NCBI RefSeq assembly: GCF_014174155.1 | Contig: NZ_JABEQM010000005.1 | Span: 124,001-188,000 of the forward strand | Length of the DNA: 64,000 nt | Source: Gluconacetobacter tumulisoli | GTDB lineage: Bacteria; Pseudomonadota; Alphaproteobacteria; Acetobacterales; Acetobacteraceae | Reading direction: 5' to 3' | In this document: positions 20,736-30,733 of the stretch, one piece after another | Numbering within the stretch: position 1 is the stretch's first letter | How the letters are laid out: every line of letters starts with the position of its first letter | Translations under genes and position numbers: made by a program | Notes under the pieces: generated by a model | Database searches by the model: none | What the model was told of the DNA's origin: nothing | The model's input: only the letters and a program-made list of their open reading frames with translations

Positions 20736-23069
20736 TCAGAAATCGTAGCGCATCGTGGCACCGACGAATCTTGGCGCGCCGGGGATGCCGTAGAATGAGT
20801 TGTAACCATTGTCCTTCGTGATCACGTAGCGACGGTCCAGAAGATTCGACACATACACTCCGACGGACCATCGCCCGCGATGCGGTGCGACGGTCAGGCT
20901 CATGCCCATCAGGAAATAGGCCGGCAGCCGGTAGATTTCGTTGCCAGGCACATCGAGCTGCGAGCCGCGATAGGAGTAATCGCCCTGCCAGGTGACGTCC
21001 CACGCACGGGTCGGGTGCATCATGTAACTGACGCTGCCGTTTAGCGTTAATTTCGGAATGCCGGAATCGTATCCATCATAGCTGGTATAGGCCGGAGAAA
21101 AAACGCCGGTCTTGGCGTAATTGGCATAGACGGCAGTCGTATTGAGAAATTTCAAATCGTCGTATCGGCCCCTCTGATAGCCGAAATGCTGTTCCAGAAG
21201 CAGACCAGGGATCGGGTTCGCATCGATCTCGCCTTCCAGCCCCCAGATCGTCGATTTGGGAATATTCACGAAGTCGCCTACCAGTCCGTAATTCTGAACC
21301 AGTTCCAGGCTCAGGATCTGCTGGTCGTGATAATCGTAATAGAAACCGTCGAAATTCACCCGCAGGCGGTGTTTCAACCAGTCACTCTTGATCCCGCCTT
21401 CATAGGCCAGAAGGGATTCCGGCTTGTAGGGGTTGAGCTGCTGGGAAATGACGGTGTTGTTGGCCGTGAATCCCCCTGGCTTGAATCCCTTGCGGACGTC
21501 GGCGAAGACCAGGAAATTCGGCGCCGCCTGGAAGTCGATCTCGCCCTTTCCGCCGAACTCGTTCGTCAATGCACCATGCGTCGGGAAGCGGACGTCGCTG
21601 AAACCATACTGTATGGTTTCGAGATTCGAGAGATGTCGGTCGTCGGCTTCATGATTGACCGAGGCCGAGATCTTCCAGCGTGGCGCGAGACGGTAGGACG
21701 CGGTCGCGTACTGGTTGAAGGTCTGGATGTCCTGATTGTAACTGGTCGCCTCGATATACGGGCGCAGGGCAGGCCCCGACCCGGAAAAATCATAGAAGAA
21801 CCGCGCCTTGGTCGCCGTTCGCGCATAATAGGCGCCGATCGTCCACTGGAAGCGACGCGGCCGGTTTTCGTTCGACAGGCGTAATTCCTGCGAGAAGACA
21901 TTGGAGTTGTTTGTGAAATATTGGTCGTCCGTCGCAACATTGGTCGAATCGAGATCCAACAGATTGTGAACGTACATCGCTTCGTAGGCGCTGATCGACC
22001 GGAATTCCGCCCATCCGAAATCATGGCGACCCGTCAGGTCAATGCCCCAGGTCGTATCGTTGCGAAATGGCTTGGTATTGGCGGCCACACCGATCATCTT
22101 GGTGAATGCCGGGCGGAATCCCCATCCCGTAAGCAGATTGTTATTGTCCGGCGCAATAAAGGGCGTAACCAGATCGCTGACGTTGAATACGCCCGGCGTG
22201 TCGGAATCGTCCTGAGCCCAGTGCCCCGTCACATTAATGCTGGTACGGGAATCGACGTCCCAGTCCAGCTTGCCCCGCAACGCGCCGTCATTGGCATCGC
22301 CGAGATGCTCGCCGTTATAGCGGTTGACCTGGTACCCGCCGCCATGGGCGGTATAGCCGGACACGCGATAACGCAGCCGGTCCGAAAGCGGCCCGGATAC
22401 ATAGAGCGCGGTACGACTTCTGGAATAGCTGGCGATATCCTGGGACACACCGGCATGAAACGTGTCGGTCGGACCGTTGGTCGTGATATTGACCTCACCG
22501 GCGGTCACGGCCTGGCCATGGGTGTATCCCACCGGTCCCGGCATCACGTCGACCCCGGCCAGATCATACATCAGGCCGGACGTCATGAAGCCGATCGGAT
22601 AGGCGATCCCGTCAACATATGTCATCACCGAGGGCGTGTTGTTCGATGTGAAATCCTTGAAGCCCACGCCGCGCAGGCTGAAATTATTGTTCGCCGTTGC
22701 TCCCTGGGGCTGAATCGTCAGGTTCGGCACCAGATTTTGAATATTCTGCAGCGTCTCGACATGATGCGTCGCCAGATCCGCCGAACTGATATGCGTGACT
22801 ACTTCGCCGACATGCTGCGACTTGCGCAGGCTCAGCGGGGAATTCCGCAGACCATCGACGGTGATCGCCTCATCCGTCACGGGCCTTGGATGAGCCGCGC
22901 GCCGGACAGGCGCATGGGGCACCGCACGGATCGGATATTTCGGGGTCATGGTGTCGGCACGGGCGGGACGGTGCGCAATCGTGGCGGCCGAGCAGCAGAG
23001 TGCCGCAAGCAGGGCCCGGTGGCCGTCATTCCTTATTCGAATCAATATATTATGTCTCAGAATCGTCAT
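20736..23069 (-). CDS. TonB-dependent outer membrane receptor
   Basis: A 777-residue receptor: signal region in residues 1-40 (hydrophobic ALLAALCCSAA), a plug domain with LQNIQNLVPNLTIQPQG and NFSLRGVGF, then a 22-strand-type barrel rich in aromatic residues ending in MRYDF, the normal terminal Phe. It imports a scarce or bulky substrate with TonB energy. The start has GGAGGG six bases upstream. It heads the MOSC, reductase, RidA-like and ACS transporter genes, so its cargo is probably an organic compound used as nutrient rather than just a siderophore. It resembles the sphingomonad-like receptors for aromatic or sugar compounds more than BtuB. Confidence 0.92.
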   Translation of the reverse strand: MTILRHNILIRIRNDGHRALLAALCCSAATIAHRPARADTMTPKYPIRAVPHAPVRRAAHPRPVTDEAITVDGLRNSPLSLRKSQHVGEVVTHISSADLATHHVETLQNIQNLVPNLTIQPQGATANNNFSLRGVGFKDFTSNNTPSVMTYVDGIAYPIGFMTSGLMYDLAGVDVMPGPVGYTHGQAVTAGEVNITTNGPTDTFHAGVSQDIASYSRSRTALYVSGPLSDRLRYRVSGYTAHGGGYQVNRYNGEHLGDANDGALRGKLDWDVDSRTSINVTGHWAQDDSDTPGVFNVSDLVTPFIAPDNNNLLTGWGFRPAFTKMIGVAANTKPFRNDTTWGIDLTGRHDFGWAEFRSISAYEAMYVHNLLDLDSTNVATDDQYFTNNSNVFSQELRLSNENRPRRFQWTIGAYYARTATKARFFYDFSGSGPALRPYIEATSYNQDIQTFNQYATASYRLAPRWKISASVNHEADDRHLSNLETIQYGFSDVRFPTHGALTNEFGGKGEIDFQAAPNFLVFADVRKGFKPGGFTANNTVISQQLNPYKPESLLAYEGGIKSDWLKHRLRVNFDGFYYDYHDQQILSLELVQNYGLVGDFVNIPKSTIWGLEGEIDANPIPGLLLEQHFGYQRGRYDDLKFLNTTAVYANYAKTGVFSPAYTSYDGYDSGIPKLTLNGSVSYMMHPTRAWDVTWQGDYSYRGSQLDVPGNEIYRLPAYFLMGMSLTVAPHRGRWSVGVYVSNLLDRRYVITKDNGYNSFYGIPGAPRFVGATMRYDF

Positions 23070-23154
23070 TCGGCGCCCTCCAGTTCAAGGTTGCGGAGAA
23101 CGGATAGCCATCACGCGGACCAGCCCAGTCGACGCCCATACAATGGCAGACCGT

Positions 23155-23183
23155 CAATATGCTGTATCGTGGACAGCATATTG
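23155..23183. promoter_or_regulatory. Perfect 11-bp inverted repeat between divergent genes
   Basis: CAATATGCTGT (23155-23165) and ACAGCATATTG (23173-23183) form a perfect inverted repeat with a seven-base spacer, midway between the TonB receptor start (23069) and the dehydrogenase start (23245). The half-site resembles that of the palindrome upstream of the IclR gene at 17495-17516. A shared IclR operator is the simplest reading. Confidence 0.6.
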
Positions 23184-23244
23184 TCTTTCGTCAATCGAAA
23201 TGTTCTGGCATGATCGCTCCCACATGAAATGGGGGAGGACGACG

Positions 23245-24177
23245 ATGGCGAGCCTGGGAATCAAGGTGGTTTCTGTTCCGGACATGGTGCTGAAGGCGTA
23301 TCTTGAAGAACGCTGTCCAAATCTTGATTTTATTCTCTGGAGAGATGAGGAGTATCCGTCCGTCGAGGATCTTTCCGTCATCGACGCCGTCATTACCCCC
23401 TACGCGCATTCCAGCCTGACGGTCGAACGCCTGGCATTGCTGCCGAATCTCAAGCTGGTACAGACGCAGAGTACAGGGGTGGACAATTTGGTCGGCAAGG
23501 TTCCCCCCGGCGTAGTGCTGTGCAGCGCGCGCGGGGTGCATGCTGCATCAACGGCCGAACTGGCTGTTGGCCTTGCCATTGCATCGTTGCGTGGGATTGA
23601 TATCGCCGCCCGCAACATGACCCGCCGCGTCTGGCAGGAGGAACGTCGCCTTACCCTGACCGACCGCAAGGTAGCACTGCTGGGGTACGGCAGCATCGGG
23701 CAGGAACTTCACCGCAAGCTTTCGGCGTTCGATGTCGAAATCGTTCGGATCGGCCAGACCGCACGTCGGGACCAGCACGGCGACATCCATGGAATGGAGG
23801 ACCTCCTGGGGCTTCTGCCCCAGACGGATATCCTGATCAGCAGTCTGCCTATGACGCCACGCACCGGGCACCTCATCAATCGGCCTGTTCTGTCTGCGAT
23901 GAAGGACGGCGCCCTGTTCATCAATGTCGGACGCGGCAGCGTCGTCGACCAGGATGCCCTCGCGGCCGAACTTTATTCCGGACGCATTTCCGCGGCGGTG
24001 GATGTGACCGACCCGGAGCCGTTGCCCGAGGATCATCCGCTATGGAGCGCGCCTCATTTTCTCCTGACGCCCCATCTTGGCGGCAATACGTCGGCCTTCC
24101 TGCCACGCATTCGCACATTCCTCGCGGACCAGATGAAACGGATCGCGGATGACCAGCCCGTCATCAATCAGTCGTAA
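23245..24177 (+). CDS. D-isomer-specific 2-hydroxyacid dehydrogenase
   Basis: A 310-residue NAD(P)-dependent oxidoreductase interconverting a 2-oxo acid and a D-2-hydroxy acid in the cytoplasm. The nucleotide-binding loop is GYGSIGQEL, the catalytic Arg is in NVGRGSVVD, the Glu in DPEPLPEDHPLW and the His in LTPHLGG. I chose ATG 23245, which follows a strong GGGGGAGGA site by five bases; the open frame runs further upstream through the operator. It is divergent from the TonB receptor operon and shares its palindrome, so it probably acts on an acid formed in that pathway. Confidence 0.93.
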   Translation: MASLGIKVVSVPDMVLKAYLEERCPNLDFILWRDEEYPSVEDLSVIDAVITPYAHSSLTVERLALLPNLKLVQTQSTGVDNLVGKVPPGVVLCSARGVHAASTAELAVGLAIASLRGIDIAARNMTRRVWQEERRLTLTDRKVALLGYGSIGQELHRKLSAFDVEIVRIGQTARRDQHGDIHGMEDLLGLLPQTDILISSLPMTPRTGHLINRPVLSAMKDGALFINVGRGSVVDQDALAAELYSGRISAAVDVTDPEPLPEDHPLWSAPHFLLTPHLGGNTSAFLPRIRTFLADQMKRIADDQPVINQS

Positions 24178-24412: not shown

Positions 24413-25189
24413 TCATTCGTGAATAGACCGGACGAAATCCGCCAGGCGCGCCGACCGGGGACGCTGGAAGATGTCGTCCGGGCAGCCTGATTCAACAATG
24501 CGCCCGCCGTCGCAGAAATGGACCCGGTCGGCCACGTCGCGGGCGAATTTCATTTCGTGCGTCACGATCAGCATGGTGATCCCCTGCTGTGCAAGATCGT
24601 TGATCACCCCCAGGATTCCCTTGACCAGTTGCGGGTCCAGGGCGCTGGTCGGCTCGTCGAACAGGATGACCGACGGCGCCATTGCCAGTGCGCGCGCGAT
24701 GGCGACGCGCTGTTTCTGTCCACCCGAGATCTGATCGGGATAATGATCCTCGCGGTCGGCCATGCCCACATCGCGCAGCAGGCTACGGGCCCGTTCGATC
24801 GCGGCATCCCGGTCCAGACCCAGGACCGTCACCGGCCCTTCCATCACATTTTGCAGCACCGTCCGATGGCTGAACAGGTTGAAATGCTGGAAAACCATCG
24901 GCATGCGGCTGCGCGCCCTGCGCAGGATCCGCTCCGGCGCGATATGCACACCTGCCCCATCGTCCTGGCACAGCATTTCGCCGAAAATGGAAATCGTCCC
25001 CCCGCTGGGCCGTTCCAGGAAATTCAGGCAGCGCAGCAGCGTCGATTTTCCCCCGCCGCTGGGACCGATCAGGCAGGCGACCTCCCCCCGGGCCACCGTC
25101 AGATCCACGCCGGCCAGGACCTGGACAGCGCCGTAGTTCTTGCGCAGCCCGCGCGCGACCAATACGGGTTCCGGTGCGGCCCCGGTCAT
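24413..25189 (-). CDS. Amino acid-type ABC transporter ATP-binding protein
   Basis: A 258-residue ATPase of the polar amino acid uptake (GlnQ/HisP) group: Walker A GPSGGGKST at residues 42-50, signature ISGGQKQR, Walker B VILFDEPTSALD and the H-loop in VTHEMKFA. Start ATG 25189 overlaps the permease stop by ATGA, so translation is coupled. The frame stays open about 600 bases upstream across the permease gene, but that part is shadow sequence. It energises import with the permease at 25186-25893 and the solute-binding domain of the fused protein upstream. Confidence 0.94.
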   Translation of the reverse strand: MTGAAPEPVLVARGLRKNYGAVQVLAGVDLTVARGEVACLIGPSGGGKSTLLRCLNFLERPSGGTISIFGEMLCQDDGAGVHIAPERILRRARSRMPMVFQHFNLFSHRTVLQNVMEGPVTVLGLDRDAAIERARSLLRDVGMADREDHYPDQISGGQKQRVAIARALAMAPSVILFDEPTSALDPQLVKGILGVINDLAQQGITMLIVTHEMKFARDVADRVHFCDGGRIVESGCPDDIFQRPRSARLADFVRSIHE

Positions 25190-25893
25190 GCCGCAATGCC
25201 TTTCGGATCGGACGGGATCATGGCGCCGCGTCGCTGATGGCGTGGGGTCAGCCTGCGTTCCAGCAGACCGATCAGCCGGGCGCTGCCGAAGCTCATGACG
25301 AAATAGATGAAGCCCACCATGATATAGGTGTTCATGCTGTCGAACGTATCCGCGATGACGATATTGGCATGCCGCAGCAATTCGTTGACCGAAATGAACG
25401 AAACCAGGGAACAATCCTTCAGAAGCGAGATGAAATATCCGCCCACCGTCGGCAGCGTCGCCCGGAACATCTGCGGCAGGACGACCCGGCGATAGATCGA
25501 GGCGCGCGACATGCCCAGCGACAGGGCCGCCTGCCGCTGGCCCGGGTCGATCGCGGCAATGGCCGCGCGAAACACTTCCGAGAGATAGGCCGCGAGATTG
25601 AGCGACAGCCCCATCACCCCCGCCCAGAACGCCGGCAGCGTCAGGCCGAATTCCGGCAAGGTGAAGTAGATGAACAGCAATTGTACGATCAGCGGCGTGT
25701 CGCGCCACAATTCGACATAGGCATCCAGCGGCCAGCGCACGGCCCGGTACGGGGACAGGCGCCCCAGCGCGACGGCCAGGCCGACAGCCAGCCCGCACGC
25801 CATGCTGACCAGGGAGAGCAGAAGCGTGATCCAGGCCCCTTGCAGCAGGAAGGGAAAATATTCCGGGACTTCCCTGAAGAAAAATCTGTACAC
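25186..25893 (-). CDS. Amino acid-type ABC transporter permease
   Basis: A 235-residue inner-membrane permease of the HisM/GlnP family, with about five helices and the EAA loop seen as EVFRAAIAAIDPGQRQAALSLGM. Normally such importers have two permeases or a homodimer; only one is present, so a homodimer is likely. It begins four bases after the chimeric NCS1/solute-binding gene and ends overlapping the ATPase. It belongs with the solute-binding domain fused to the NCS1 permease. Confidence 0.93.
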   Translation of the reverse strand: MYRFFFREVPEYFPFLLQGAWITLLLSLVSMACGLAVGLAVALGRLSPYRAVRWPLDAYVELWRDTPLIVQLLFIYFTLPEFGLTLPAFWAGVMGLSLNLAAYLSEVFRAAIAAIDPGQRQAALSLGMSRASIYRRVVLPQMFRATLPTVGGYFISLLKDCSLVSFISVNELLRHANIVIADTFDSMNTYIMVGFIYFVMSFGSARLIGLLERRLTPRHQRRGAMIPSDPKGIAA

Positions 25894-25897
25894 GCCC

Positions 25898-28183
25898 TTA
25901 TCGTCCCGTCGGCTGCGGCTTGATCAGATGATCCTGCACCGGTTCCCATACGCCGTTCTTCTTCAGGATCGCCTTCAGCGTCCCGTCCGCGCGCATCGCC
26001 TCCAGCGTCGTGTTCAACGCGGCCAGCAGGTCGGTGCAGGCCGGGCGCACCACGATTCCCTCGTCGCCCAGATAGTATGGCGACGCGCGCTCCGCCTCCC
26101 GCCAGGCCGGCTTGGCCTGGTAGAAGAGCGGATCGCCGACAATGCGCAGGCTCTTGAACTCGTCCTTGTGGGACAGCAGGGAATCCTGGTCGAGGACAAC
26201 GGCGTCGATCTGGCCGTTTCGCAAGGCCATGAACGGATCACCCCAGTTATTGTAATCCGAGACCGACGCCCCGTACCCCTGCGCCACCAGACCGTGCGCG
26301 ACCATGGAATCGGTCGATCCGACGACCGAGCCCAGGATCTTGCCCCGCAGATCGTCCATGGTCCGGATCGGTGAGTCGCCCAGCACGATCACGTGGTCGT
26401 ACAGGCGGAAATAGGGCGCGGAAAACAGCACGTTTCCGTCGATGATACGTTCCTGCGTGATCGCGATGTCCGACAGCACGATGTCCCACCGGCGGGCCTT
26501 CAGGCCCGGGATAAGGGTCGGCCATTCGGTGGGGATGAAACGGGCCCGGGAGACGTCCATCCGGCGCGCGATTTCAAAGAACAGGTCGGCGGTTACACCG
26601 TGATATCCACCCTCCCGGTCCTGCCACAGCGCGATCCGGTCGCCCAGCAGGCCGGTCCCGGACGTCAGCACGCCCGCCCGCCTGACATCGTCCAGGCATC
26701 CGGCGCCCGCCCGCGTAGCGGGCAGCAGCAGTCCGGCCAGGAGGACGACCGTCCAGACCCGCCGTCCGTCCCATCCGTCCGCCCCGGAAGGGGCAAAGAC
26801 GCGCAGCAGCCACAGATAGGCCGGCGTGGTCAGCGACAGCCCCACGATCCATGAGATATCCACTCCGTGCAGCAGCGGCACCGCCGGCCCGGTATAATAT
26901 CCGTTCGTCATGAACGGGAACTGCACCACCAGCCCGAACCCGTAGGCCAACAAGGCGGCGACGTTGAAGCGCCCGTAGATGCCGCCATCGGCACGAAAGA
27001 ACGAGGCCACGTCATACGCGCCCCGCCGGACCAGATAGTAATCCACCAGATTGACCGCCGTCCACGGCACCAGGAACGCCATCAGCATTTCGAGGAAAGC
27101 GGTATAGGACTGGAAGAAATGCCGTTCCGCCAGCAGCGCGACCCCCAGCGACAGCAGCAGGATGGCCGCCGTCAGCCCCAGCCGGACGGCCCGGCCGGGG
27201 CGCCAGCCGGCGACGAAGGTCTGGATGATCGTGATGCTCGACAGGGCGGCACAATAGATGTTCATGGCGGTCGAGATCGCGATGCCGAGTGCAAGCACAC
27301 TCAGGACCGGTACCGCATGTGGCGACACCAGGCCCGCCAGCGATCCGGTCACGTCATCCTGCCGTACGAATGGCCCCAGCAGCGCGCCGACCACCATGGG
27401 CAGGACCGACCCGGTGACGCTGCCGGCATAGCACGCGGCGAACGCCCGCCGGCCGCCATCCGTCGTGGCCGGCAGGTAACGCGAGGAATCGGACACGTTC
27501 GGCGCATAGGCGATCTGCCACAGCGCCGCGGTCGACAGCGCCCCCAGGAATCCCAGGAACGACCCATGCCGGGGCAACGCCGCCAGGTGCGCCAGCAGCG
27601 GCAGGCCCCGCGCCAGCGCATACAGGATCGCCAGCCCGCCCAGCCAGGTCAGGACGCGCGCGCCGGCATGGATGCCGCGATAGCCGAAGATGGTCGGCGC
27701 CATGCTGCACACGCCGATGGCCAGGACCGCCGGAACACGCCCCAGGCCCGGCAGCGCCACGCGCAGCGTCTCGCCGCCCAGGACGAGGTTCGACGCCGTG
27801 AAGCCCAGATACATCAGGGTGGCCAGGACCATGATCGGCACGGCACCCACCGATCCGAACTGACCCCGTGTCTGGACCATCTGCGGCACGCCCAGCATAG
27901 GCCCCTGCGCCGCATGCAGCGCCATCACGACACCGCCGACCAGACTGCCTAGCACGATGGCCAGCAGCGCCGGGCCGATCGACAGGCCGAACAGGCCGGT
28001 GGACAGCGCCCCTGTGACGATCGTCAGCATCATCATGTTCGACCCGCACCAGACGGTGAACAGGTCGCGGGTCCGGCCGTGACGCCGGTCATGGGGAATG
28101 GGAAAGATCGTCTCGGCCTCGATGACCGGGCCGGCGGGGGAATCGCCTGGGGCGCCGGCAACGGGGCGGGACGACGCCGTCAT
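25898..28183 (-). CDS. Chimera: NCS1 permease fused to a family 3 solute-binding domain
   Basis: A single uninterrupted 761-residue frame. Residues 30-465 are a nucleobase:cation symporter-1 (cytosine/allantoin/hydantoin permease) with about twelve helices. After a short basic linker (RR at 474-475) comes one more hydrophobic stretch (476-493), which resembles a signal peptide, then residues 496-745 form a bacterial extracellular solute-binding protein of family 3 (GVTADLFFEIARRM, WDIVLSDIAITQER and GQIDAVVLDQDSLL are recognisable). By the positive-inside rule the extra helix would put the binding domain in the periplasm, tethered to the symporter. There is no stop or good start codon at the junction. 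The ATGA start overlaps the Rieske gene, and the ABC permease follows four bases later. Both halves look full length. Confidence 0.88.
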   Translation of the reverse strand: MTASSRPVAGAPGDSPAGPVIEAETIFPIPHDRRHGRTRDLFTVWCGSNMMMLTIVTGALSTGLFGLSIGPALLAIVLGSLVGGVVMALHAAQGPMLGVPQMVQTRGQFGSVGAVPIMVLATLMYLGFTASNLVLGGETLRVALPGLGRVPAVLAIGVCSMAPTIFGYRGIHAGARVLTWLGGLAILYALARGLPLLAHLAALPRHGSFLGFLGALSTAALWQIAYAPNVSDSSRYLPATTDGGRRAFAACYAGSVTGSVLPMVVGALLGPFVRQDDVTGSLAGLVSPHAVPVLSVLALGIAISTAMNIYCAALSSITIIQTFVAGWRPGRAVRLGLTAAILLLSLGVALLAERHFFQSYTAFLEMLMAFLVPWTAVNLVDYYLVRRGAYDVASFFRADGGIYGRFNVAALLAYGFGLVVQFPFMTNGYYTGPAVPLLHGVDISWIVGLSLTTPAYLWLLRVFAPSGADGWDGRRVWTVVLLAGLLLPATRAGAGCLDDVRRAGVLTSGTGLLGDRIALWQDREGGYHGVTADLFFEIARRMDVSRARFIPTEWPTLIPGLKARRWDIVLSDIAITQERIIDGNVLFSAPYFRLYDHVIVLGDSPIRTMDDLRGKILGSVVGSTDSMVAHGLVAQGYGASVSDYNNWGDPFMALRNGQIDAVVLDQDSLLSHKDEFKSLRIVGDPLFYQAKPAWREAERASPYYLGDEGIVVRPACTDLLAALNTTLEAMRADGTLKAILKKNGVWEPVQDHLIKPQPTGR

Positions 28184-29340
28184 GCCCCGCCGGCCGGTCC
28201 GGACGCAGGATCGAAACCGACCGTCCGCCCGGCAAGATACCGGGTGAAATCATACAGCGGCCGTTCCAGGTGGGACAGCCGGCCCGGCGTCGCCCGGGTG
28301 GCCTGCATGCCGCGGAACACCTTTTCGGTGCAGCGGCGATCCTCGACATTGACGGCGTCCAGCAGCGCCTTCAACGCCGCAACGTACTCCTGCCCCTGGG
28401 GATCGTCGATGAATTCGGGCGACAGGCCGCCACCGAAGATCATCCTGACCTTGCCCACGCCCTCGGGATGGAGGGACAGGTACCAGAAATAACCGGGGGT
28501 CAGCGTGATCAGGTGCGACGGATAGATGGTGATCAGGCCGGTGGTCCGGCGCCAGTGCCCGGTCAGCCGCGTATTGGCGGGATGGGCATTACCGATCGCC
28601 AGCGACGCTTCCTTGGTGATCCAATGGTAGTTGAATGCCGCAAGGCCGGGCGGGCAGTCCATTTCCTCCAGCTTCGAATGCGGGCCGACGGTGCGCGCAT
28701 GGCAAACCGGCAAATGGTAGCTTTCCATGAAATTCTCGGCCAGGATCTTCCAATTGGTGTCCCAGACATGGGTTTCCCGAAAGCATTCGACGTACCGCTC
28801 CATGCCGTAGGGCGCGATCATCTGCTCCAGAGGGCGCAGGCGGTCCGCCACCGGCACCGCGTCGGCGTCCAGCGTCACATAGATCCAGCCCAGCCAGTCC
28901 TCGCACCGGATGTCGGGCAGCCGGTACTCGTCCTTGCAGAAACCCGGGCGCCCGTTCATCAGCGGCGCGCCCCGCATCGTGCCGTCCAGATTGTACGACC
29001 AGGCATGATAGGGACAGACGATGGCCCGGACGTTCCCCGCGCCCTCCAGCAAGGTGGACATGCGGTGCAGGCAGACATTCGACATTGCCCGCAACCGTCC
29101 GTCCCGGTCGCGCAGGACGATGATGGGCTGCCCCGCGATCTCGCAGGTCAGGTAATCGCCGGCCATCGCCAGCGCGGATGCCCGCCCGACGCAGATCCAT
29201 TCCCGCGCGAAGATCGTCTCGACCTCGCGCGCCAGGAACGCCTCGCTCGTATAGGGCTCGGGGGACATGGCGACCGCCTCGTCGAACGGACGCGACGCCG
29301 TCCGCAGCAGGGCCGTCCCGGCCGGATCCATGAAGGTCAT
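28180..29340 (-). CDS. Rieske non-heme iron oxygenase, alpha subunit
   Basis: A 386-residue aromatic-ring-hydroxylating-type oxygenase. The Rieske [2Fe-2S] ligands are C90, H92, C109 and H112. The mononuclear iron ligands are H209 and H214 in ESYHLPVCH. The residue bridging the two centres, Asp in most members (D205-x2-H208 in naphthalene dioxygenase), is Glu206 here, as reported for carnitine oxygenase CntA. This hints at a quaternary-ammonium or similar polar N-substrate rather than an arene. I chose ATG 29340 (GGAG upstream); an in-frame start at 29412 would overlap the monooxygenase gene. It needs a reductase that is not in this operon. It overlaps the NCS1 chimera by ATGA. Confidence 0.9.
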   Translation of the reverse strand: MTFMDPAGTALLRTASRPFDEAVAMSPEPYTSEAFLAREVETIFAREWICVGRASALAMAGDYLTCEIAGQPIIVLRDRDGRLRAMSNVCLHRMSTLLEGAGNVRAIVCPYHAWSYNLDGTMRGAPLMNGRPGFCKDEYRLPDIRCEDWLGWIYVTLDADAVPVADRLRPLEQMIAPYGMERYVECFRETHVWDTNWKILAENFMESYHLPVCHARTVGPHSKLEEMDCPPGLAAFNYHWITKEASLAIGNAHPANTRLTGHWRRTTGLITIYPSHLITLTPGYFWYLSLHPEGVGKVRMIFGGGLSPEFIDDPQGQEYVAALKALLDAVNVEDRRCTEKVFRGMQATRATPGRLSHLERPLYDFTRYLAGRTVGFDPASGPAGGA

Positions 29341-29395
29341 GAGGTGCGCTCCGTCACAAGGGATGCAGGCAGACAGTTCCGGCATGGGACCATGA

Positions 29396-30733
29396 TCAGT
29401 CCGCAGGCGCATGGCGGTTGCGCGGACGGGCCAGCCCCAGATTCTCGCGCAGGGTCGTGCCCTGGTAGTCGGTGCGGAACAGTCCGCGCCGCTGCAGCTC
29501 CGGCACCACCTTTTCCGTGATGTCGGTCAGGCTTTCCGGCAGGACCGGCAGCGCCATCATGAATCCGTCGCTGGCGCCGGCCGCAACCCATTCCTCCATC
29601 CGGTCGGCGATCTGCCGGGCGGTGCCGTAGAAGATCGCCTTGCTGCGGTTGTAGCGCTTGCAGACCTGGCGCAAGGTCAGGCCCTGGCGGATCAGTCCGG
29701 CGATTTCCTGAAAATAGACCTGATGGAAATTAGATTTTTCCGGAATCCGATGCTCCGGAACCGGTTCGTCCAACGGCAGGTCGGACAAATCGGTTTCCAG
29801 GTCGGTCTTCAGGTACATCAGCCCGATATCGATATGGATCATCTCCTGCCAGGCGGCCCATTTCTCGCGCGCATGCTCCTCGCTCTCGCCCAGGACGATG
29901 GACACGCCGGACAGCACCTTCAGTTCGTCCGGATGACGGCCGTGGCGCGGCATGCGTCCCTTCAGGTCCTGGTAGAATGCCACGGCCTCGGACATCGAGG
30001 CCCCGGTTCCGAACACCACCTCGGCGGTCCGCGCCGCGAATTCCCTGCCGGTTTCCGATGCCCCCGCCTGGAAGATGACCGGCTGCCCCTGCGGCGAGCG
30101 CGCCATGTTCAACCCGCCCTGCACCCGGAAGAATTCACCCTGGTGGTCCAGGACATGGAATTTCTTCGGGTCGAACATCCGCACGTTCGTCTTGTCGTGG
30201 ATGAAGGCGTCGTCTTCCCAGGTGTCCCACAAGGCCTGCACGACGCCCAGGAATTCCCCGGCCCGGTCATAGCGCCGATGATGCGGCGGCAACGCGTCCA
30301 GGCCGAAATTGCGCGCGGCGTAATCGTTGGCGGTGGTCACGACGTTCCACGCGGCGCGGCCATGGCTGATATGGTCCAGCGACGCGAACAGGCGGGCGAT
30401 ATTATAGGGTTCATAGAAGCTGGTGGAGGCCGTGGCGCCAAGGCCGATATGCGACGTCGATCCGGCGATGGCCGACAGCAGGGTGATCGGCTCCATCATG
30501 TTCATGTAGAGCGGCGCCCGCGTCCAGGCGTCGAGGTTTTCGGTCCGCGCCGCCGGCGTATCGGCCAGGAAGAAGAAATCCAGCTTTCCCCGTTCCGCCG
30601 TCTGGACGATGCGGCGGAAATAATCGATGTCGGTCGCCGCCCCATCCTGCGCGCCGGGCATCAGCCACGCCGCGGAATGATAGCCGTTGGCCTCGAACAG
30701 GCCGCCCAGAACGATATGTCGTCGCGCACCCAA
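29396..30733 (-). CDS. NtaA/SnaA/DszA-type FMN-dependent monooxygenase
   Basis: A 445-residue bacterial luciferase-like flavin monooxygenase of the long NtaA/SnaA/DszA branch, which hydroxylates N- or S-containing compounds using FMNH2 supplied by a reductase. Typical segments are GYHSAAWLMP near the start, GKLDFFFLADTPA, AWNVVTTANDYAARNFG and VIFQAGASETGREFAA. The start is TTG 30733 with GGAGGAG seven bases upstream (no ATG fits the family N-terminus). It is the first gene of the Rieske, NCS1 chimera and ABC operon. The substrate is probably a small nitrogenous or chelator-like molecule. No flavin reductase gene adjoins it. Confidence 0.92.
   Translation of the reverse strand: MGARRHIVLGGLFEANGYHSAAWLMPGAQDGAATDIDYFRRIVQTAERGKLDFFFLADTPAARTENLDAWTRAPLYMNMMEPITLLSAIAGSTSHIGLGATASTSFYEPYNIARLFASLDHISHGRAAWNVVTTANDYAARNFGLDALPPHHRRYDRAGEFLGVVQALWDTWEDDAFIHDKTNVRMFDPKKFHVLDHQGEFFRVQGGLNMARSPQGQPVIFQAGASETGREFAARTAEVVFGTGASMSEAVAFYQDLKGRMPRHGRHPDELKVLSGVSIVLGESEEHAREKWAAWQEMIHIDIGLMYLKTDLETDLSDLPLDEPVPEHRIPEKSNFHQVYFQEIAGLIRQGLTLRQVCKRYNRSKAIFYGTARQIADRMEEWVAAGASDGFMMALPVLPESLTDITEKVVPELQRRGLFRTDYQGTTLRENLGLARPRNRHAPAD

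Follow-up and report, generated by a model that had tools for sequence, protein, structure and literature searches.

The 64,000-nucleotide stretch of Gluconacetobacter tumulisoli DNA analysed here (the window) comes from a draft genome assembled into 49 contigs (G000, the window's own genome), where it lies on contig C5. Positions 25898-28183 of its minus strand hold a single open frame of 761 codons, with an ATG start and zero internal stops, that joins a symporter to a solute-binding protein (SBP). The parts of this fused gene and its neighbours are as follows.

24413-25189, minus strand: ABC ATPase of 258 amino acids (PF00005, scanned as 24413-25165; start taken from comparison with the second species, G009)
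25186-25893, minus strand: ABC permease with a GTG start (PF00528), beginning 4 bases past the stop of the fusion
25898-26701, minus strand: fused gene, family 3 SBP, residues 495-761 and the stop codon (PF00497; kept residues; dN/dS 0.13)
26702-26758, minus strand: fused gene, putative internal SBP signal peptide, residues 476-494, site AGA↓GC (A-X-A alignment; 15-residue uncharged run)
26759-26788, minus strand: fused gene, fast-evolving linker, residues 466-475 (16 of 30 aligned bases differ; net in-frame 9-base indel)
26789-28183, minus strand: fused gene, NCS1-type symporter half, residues 1-465 (PF02133; dN/dS; tails of relatives)
28180-29412, minus strand: Rieske oxygenase (PF00355 and PF00848; longest frame, the true start may be internal)
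29396-30733, minus strand: NtaA/DmoA-type flavin monooxygenase, LLM (TIGR03860, 520.8 bits, cut-off 279.7)

The genes are tightly packed. The stop of the Rieske gene overlaps the start of the fusion by 4 bases, and the ATPase gene overlaps the end of the permease gene by 4 bases. The permease and ATPase genes adjoin the fused SBP and give it an ABC-type gene neighbourhood, which agrees with the earlier note's statement that these are the next two genes. A class II aldolase gene, the LLM gene and the Rieske gene all lie upstream of the fusion. Together with enzymes of a cluster found in relatives (PhyH, HutD, a HisC-like aminotransferase and an M20 deacetylase), the Rieske oxygenase, the NtaA/DmoA monooxygenase and the class II aldolase suggest an amino-acid-like nitrogen compound as the substrate. 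Beyond the ABC genes, at 20736-24177, lie a TonB-dependent receptor (minus strand) and a 2-hydroxyacid dehydrogenase (plus strand); both are also present in G009, and both were unmatched in the 19.5 kb taken from the sister species G002.

Both halves of the 761-residue protein were assigned to families. Residues 28-448 match the NCS1 symporter family PF02133 with 156.7 bits (cut-off 23.5), covering positions 1-440 of the 440 in the profile, and residues 521-742 match the family 3 SBPs of PF00497 with 74.1 bits (cut-off 26.4). The symporter half falls below the cut-off of the NCBI subfamily model TIGR00800 (89.1 against 353.1 bits), so that no subfamily or substrate is assignable by it, and the SBP half falls below the NCBI named-substrate models, the best being TIGR01096 (91.5 bits, cut-off 256.35). 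When the symporter half alone was compared with the PDB by sequence, zero solved chains matched at E<=1. The tails of 18 related symporters were inspected and end 5-26 residues beyond the PF02133 match.

NCS1 proteins have 12 helices in a LeuT fold. A hydropathy scan of the symporter half gave 13 windows, two of them slightly overlapping, which is compatible with 12 helices and is no proof of them; one further window lies at the join, with residues 476-490 as its uncharged run. AlphaFold models of the two fused sequences had a mean pLDDT of 32.6 and a pTM of 0.21 and were discarded, and the topology given here rests on hydropathy and family knowledge. That topology would allow the periplasmic placement of the SBP which the earlier note had proposed. 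In the SBP half, Arg579, Asp665, Cys496 and Cys716 are present in all 14 SBPs aligned (2 fused, 12 free). We take Arg579 and Asp665 to be ligand-contacting residues, as in the LAO/HisJ type. The two cysteines are a likely disulfide, which would speak for a periplasmic SBP fold.

A second species, Gluconacetobacter azotocaptans LMG 21311, has this fusion too, with 93% identity as G009 (query residues 10-761) and 92% as L036; the two entries were treated as one genome. The uninterrupted symporter-SBP frame is thus confirmed by the open reading frame itself, by its PF02133 and PF00497 matches and by its presence in another species. The junction sequence is FAP-SGADGWDGR-RVW in the window and FAP-VQKGGT-RVW in G009, a net indel of 3 codons (9 bases) that keeps the frame. 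Between the two fused genes dN/dS was 0.10 over 438 symporter codons (residues 25-462) and 0.13 over 267 codons of the SBP, and the unfused neighbours had similar values of 0.15 (permease), 0.15 (ATPase), 0.10 (LLM) and 0.08 (aldolase). The 16 differing bases of the linker, counted over the 10 alignable codons of residues 463-475, were compared with the symporter's rate of difference and gave a binomial P of ~6e-11, assuming that the linker alignment is right. Judged from the sequences, the fused frame is retained with both halves under purifying selection while the linker drifts, and translation of the 761 residues as one chain is supported. The fast change of the linker fits a part without a precise structural role.

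The symporter-SBP fusion is rare. Within the genus it is present in 2 of 14 genomes, with any match at E<=1e-60 in 9 of the 14. A set of 60 relatives gave 44 with a match at E<=0.001; of the matches listed, only those in G000 and G009 reach across both halves. A family sample of 299 genomes, with at most 3 candidates per genome scored and G009 absent from the draw, gave 52 with a match at E<=1e-60; among the matches listed, the window's own genome alone spans both halves. The class sample (385 genomes, at most 2 candidates scored) gave 2 genomes with a match at E<=1e-40: that of the window, and one whose match is a partial symporter. The phylum sample covered 398 genomes, with no more than 4 candidates scored, and an NCS1 match at E<=1e-20 was present in 93 of them. 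Apart from the window's own, three of the matches listed lie in open frames of at least 700 codons, and zero are C-terminal fusions. Five candidates for C-terminal fusions (G1035, G982, G978, G109 and G003) were rejected, having only 34, 31, 34, 12 and 0 residues past the match; G109 and G003 were read with frames of 464 and 473 codons, against 902 and 886 in the search output. G022:C200 was also rejected: its match crosses a TGA to reach query residue 482, and its own frame ends at 461 amino acids. A plasmid collection gave 1074 matching records, of which 0 reach 80% coverage of the query; at the DNA level, the junction together with the SBP had no near match in it.

The earlier note had read an extra hydrophobic segment at the join as an added membrane anchor. 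The segment is there, but it appears to be the SBP's own signal peptide instead: fused and free SBPs share it from RVW onward, the free SBP of G002 included. Its uncharged run, 15 residues in the window and 17 in G009, is short for a stable helix. The join ends A-G-A↓GC in the window and A-R-A↓GC in G009, a site of the signal peptidase I type as judged by eye and from relatives. At the aligned place, A-X-A is found in 9 of the 12 free SBPs (G001, G002, G286, G170, G255, G115, G291, G121 and G261), and the remaining three have SRA (G096), VRA (G144) and AHS (G304). By eye, then, both fused genes carry an internal signal peptide with an A-X-A site after the many-helix part. Since the join resembles a normal signal for export and its cutting site is conserved, the protein is probably cut during export. 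In G001 (VAGC) and G115 (LAGC) the site also resembles what we take to be a lipoprotein box, and the fused forms (GAGC, RAGC) do not; the processing enzyme may therefore differ within the family.

The sister species G002 has the SBP as a free gene. Its order is phosphoesterase, glycosyltransferase, aldolase, LLM, SBP, permease, ATPase, and the Rieske oxygenase and the symporter were unmatched in the 19.5 kb taken. The LLM gene is directly upstream of the free SBP, which has a signal peptide of its own, MQRRASPACPWLRRVWAVVFLIGLLLPGPRARA. Its dN/dS against either fused gene is 0.19, so SBP and ABC genes are under constraint there without the symporter, which suggests that the SBP can persist with the ABC part alone. 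We also found the SBP and an NCS1 symporter as separate neighbouring genes in ten other genomes of the family (G001, G286, G170, G255, G096, G115, G304, G291, G121 and G261), in the order SBP, permease, ATPase, symporter where the calls are clear. The gene calls were heuristic and missed or mis-called some genes (most of L073, the SBPs of L072 and L074, and the window's ATPase and class II aldolase); absence from the gene-call list was not counted as evidence. Separate genes in close relatives, which the earlier note had offered as grounds for giving up its claim, do exist, yet they do not undo the fusion.

One further locus, L076 of G144 (another genus of the family), has an SBP 49%, a permease 65% and a nearby LLM monooxygenase 57% identical to those of the window. 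From this locus, the pairing of LLM and ABC genes may predate the fusion. The matches listed for G144, whose contig is only 14.2 kb long, include SBP and permease and no symporter.

In a tree of 42 symporter rows, nine of the ten genomes have their ABC-linked symporter in one clade (100/100), and that of G304 stands apart on a long branch. The fused symporter falls elsewhere, with 14 symporters not placed in the ABC-linked set (98/91). The tree does not support the idea that it is the same symporter as the one beside the relatives' ABC genes; from its placement, NCS1 symporters of two different subclades may have become associated with this ABC system in separate events. The flanks of 17 symporter loci, which include 12 of those 14 and were mostly 1.5 kb per side, gave no match to other proteins of the window's operon.

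Three species bear on the age of the fusion. In an rpoB-region tree of 14 genomes of the genus, G002 and G009 group together and the window's genome falls with the rest, at a bootstrap of 92 (the usual threshold being 95), and in each of the six shared locus genes that were compared no pair is closer than G009 and G002. The codons that start the G002 signal peptide (SPACPWLRR) and the last codons of the symporter (TPAYLWLLR) agree in 21 of 24 bases for G000, in the same frame. Among 500 dinucleotide shuffles 0 were as good as this, and 4 of 500 reached the 20 of 24 seen for G009; at lengths of 20 and 28, 1, 1, 1 and 2 of 500 shuffles reached the observed value. This comparison was post hoc, BLAST having already shown the likeness (E 0.002 and 0.006). 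The stretch in question, L037:9130-9194 of G002, is a candidate for a signal peptide built from a membrane protein's tail. On the simplest account, the fusion would be ancestral to the three species, and G002 would have deleted the Rieske oxygenase and the symporter, so that a scrap of the symporter now starts its signal peptide. Two separate fusions, or recombination at the short likeness, would be an alternative history, and the strong divergence of the linker leaves room for two fusion events.

We propose that the gene encodes a natural polyprotein: one chain is made and then cut at the internal signal peptide, giving an SBP for the ABC importer and a symporter that acts independently. We put the probability of this reading at roughly 0.6. 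The symporter helices would insert first. The C-terminus of NCS1 proteins is presumably cytoplasmic, so the signal peptide would have to start a new export step; an Arg-containing stretch (RR in the window, TR in G009) and the short hydrophobic run would do so, and the SBP domain would be threaded into the periplasm. Signal peptidase I would then cut at about A494-G495. The freed SBP of ~29 kDa would load the ABC importer encoded by the next two genes, and the symporter would keep a short C-terminal stub. Counted in favour of a polyprotein is also that the ABC genes lie directly downstream and are under constraint like that of the fusion. As to origin, a Rieske-symporter pair may have come to lie upstream of the SBP gene, the symporter losing its stop and the SBP its start, and the fusion was perhaps kept because both products belong to one catabolic operon.

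A precedent for such processing is FbcH, the cytochrome b/c1 polyprotein of Bradyrhizobium, in which an internal signal sequence connects a many-helix part to the periplasmic domain behind it, and signal peptidase cuts the two apart. The layout is alike here. The halves of FbcH, however, make up one complex, whereas the halves here belong to two different transporters and the cutting is predicted from sequence. If the chain is cut, a single bacterial polyprotein would supply components of two transporters unrelated to each other. The close relatives offer a natural series of separate genes, a fused gene and an apparently un-fused gene.

The earlier note had favoured a single capture domain that is permanently tethered and shared by two transport mechanisms. 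The signal peptide at the join, the separate genes in relatives and the arrangement in G002 move that claim from first place, and a polyprotein is the most likely of the two readings. An uncut receptor, its SBP anchored by the extra segment and feeding either the symporter alone or the symporter and the ABC importer together, is in our judgement improbable. The topology allows it, and NCS1 symporters of a different subclade stand near this ABC system in 10 further genomes, a hint of a shared substrate. It fits poorly, however, with a signal-peptide-like join that retains its cutting site and a linker conserved in neither length nor sequence. It also has to explain why G002 keeps the SBP with the ABC genes and without a symporter, and why the ten other genomes with both halves close together encode them separately.

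Published fusions of an SBP with a symporter of another family pair also lend the uncut receptor some weight: in the available text of PMC12344293, TAXI-GltS fusions represent a new type of secondary transporter that depends on an SBP, with 14 fused among ~10,000 GltS entries. Like these Lachnospiraceae fusions and the Bordetella pertussis system of the same paper, in which an SBP and a sodium-type secondary transporter form one chain or coupled neighbours, the protein described here has an SBP joined to a secondary transporter. The TAXI-GltS SBP is of the TAXI type and N-terminal, and no ABC genes are named as its partner in that text; here an ABC-type family 3 SBP is C-terminal, behind a signal peptide and with ABC genes adjoining. 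The families differ too, PF00497 and PF02133, with NCS1 of the LeuT fold, standing here in place of the TAXI type and GltS (ESS). The same text raises the possibility that some feature of the elevator mechanism is needed. GltS is probably an elevator. If the chain were uncut, it would bear on the question raised there, whether SBPs can serve non-elevator secondary transporters, and would test the published suggestion that the use of an SBP by a secondary transporter depends on an elevator mechanism. GlnPQ-type ABC importers (6h30) likewise carry a family 3 SBP in covalent linkage with a membrane transport protein. They join it to the ABC permease that it serves, whereas here it is joined to an unrelated symporter. 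An uncut chain, if true, would to our knowledge be the first SBP-dependent rocking-bundle secondary transporter.

The first 465 residues share PF02133 membership with the NCS1 symporters Mhp1 and CodB. We know of no SBP domain in Mhp1- and CodB-like symporters. CodB is described as a LeuT-superfamily protein in the available part of PMC9379551. The accessible portions of PMC8276074 and PMC5812351 mention fusions within TRAP, TTT or ABC systems and none with NCS1. A search of the literature by title and abstract, with most subscription journals outside its coverage, found no NCS1-SBP fusion. To this extent the earlier note's statement that the layout is undescribed stands; as a statement about SBP-secondary transporter fusions at large it is overtaken by the TAXI-GltS fusions of PMC12344293, as far as its available text goes.

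A second way to a free SBP would be overlapping coding: besides the fusion, ribosomes would start within the 3' end of the symporter and make an SBP with a signal peptide of its own. We consider this doubtful as well. G009 has a TTG at codon 452 and an ATG at codon 472. A product from the TTG would begin LRAFAPVQKGGTRVW (first residue read as Met), a typical signal peptide, which makes internal initiation possible in that species and counts against the polyprotein, and the free SBP of G002 starts in or near the homologous stretch. This TTG has a poor Shine-Dalgarno match, however (3/6, spacing 3), and G000 has a CTG in its place. Between codons 447 and 505 G000 has zero ATG, GTG or TTG codons, so that a free SBP with a whole signal peptide cannot begin there at a usual codon, and the next usual start, GTG 505, lies past the signal peptide. 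The Shine-Dalgarno match of GTG 505 is fair in G000 (5/6, spacing 6) and 4/6 in G009.

Less probable still is a degenerating or accidental fusion, in which drift removed the stop and one half is no longer functional. The restriction to few species (2 of 14 in the genus) and the apparent loss in one would agree with it, but dN/dS is 0.10-0.13 in both halves, the signature residues of the SBP are intact and the reading frame survives the linker indel. An error of sequencing or assembly at the junction, conceivable in a draft of 49 contigs, is nearly refuted by the second species, which carries the fusion with a different linker and no stop and so contradicts the stop or frameshift that the earlier note had allowed for.

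Two other sets of loci were observed. A cluster recurs in the family at L068, L069, L070, L071, L075 and L077, and also at L038, L072 and L074. One arm encodes a 2OG-Fe(II) dioxygenase, a HutD-like protein, a GlcD-like FAD oxidase and a HisC-like aminotransferase, and the divergent arm encodes a PhyH dioxygenase, SBP, permease, ATPase, NCS1 symporter and TonB receptor. An M20 deacetylase is present in several of these loci, and PhyH was not called in L038 or L074. Families were scanned in L068 alone and assigned in the others by clustering, and some genes are uncalled in some loci. In the window's genome and two sisters (L041, L047 and L048), another NCS1 paralogue lies near a strong match to L-piperidine-6-carboxylate dehydrogenase (804.6 bits, cut-off 730, in L041, the one locus scanned; all three loci share this gene cluster), a hint that the substrate of the paralogue is lysine- or pipecolate-like.
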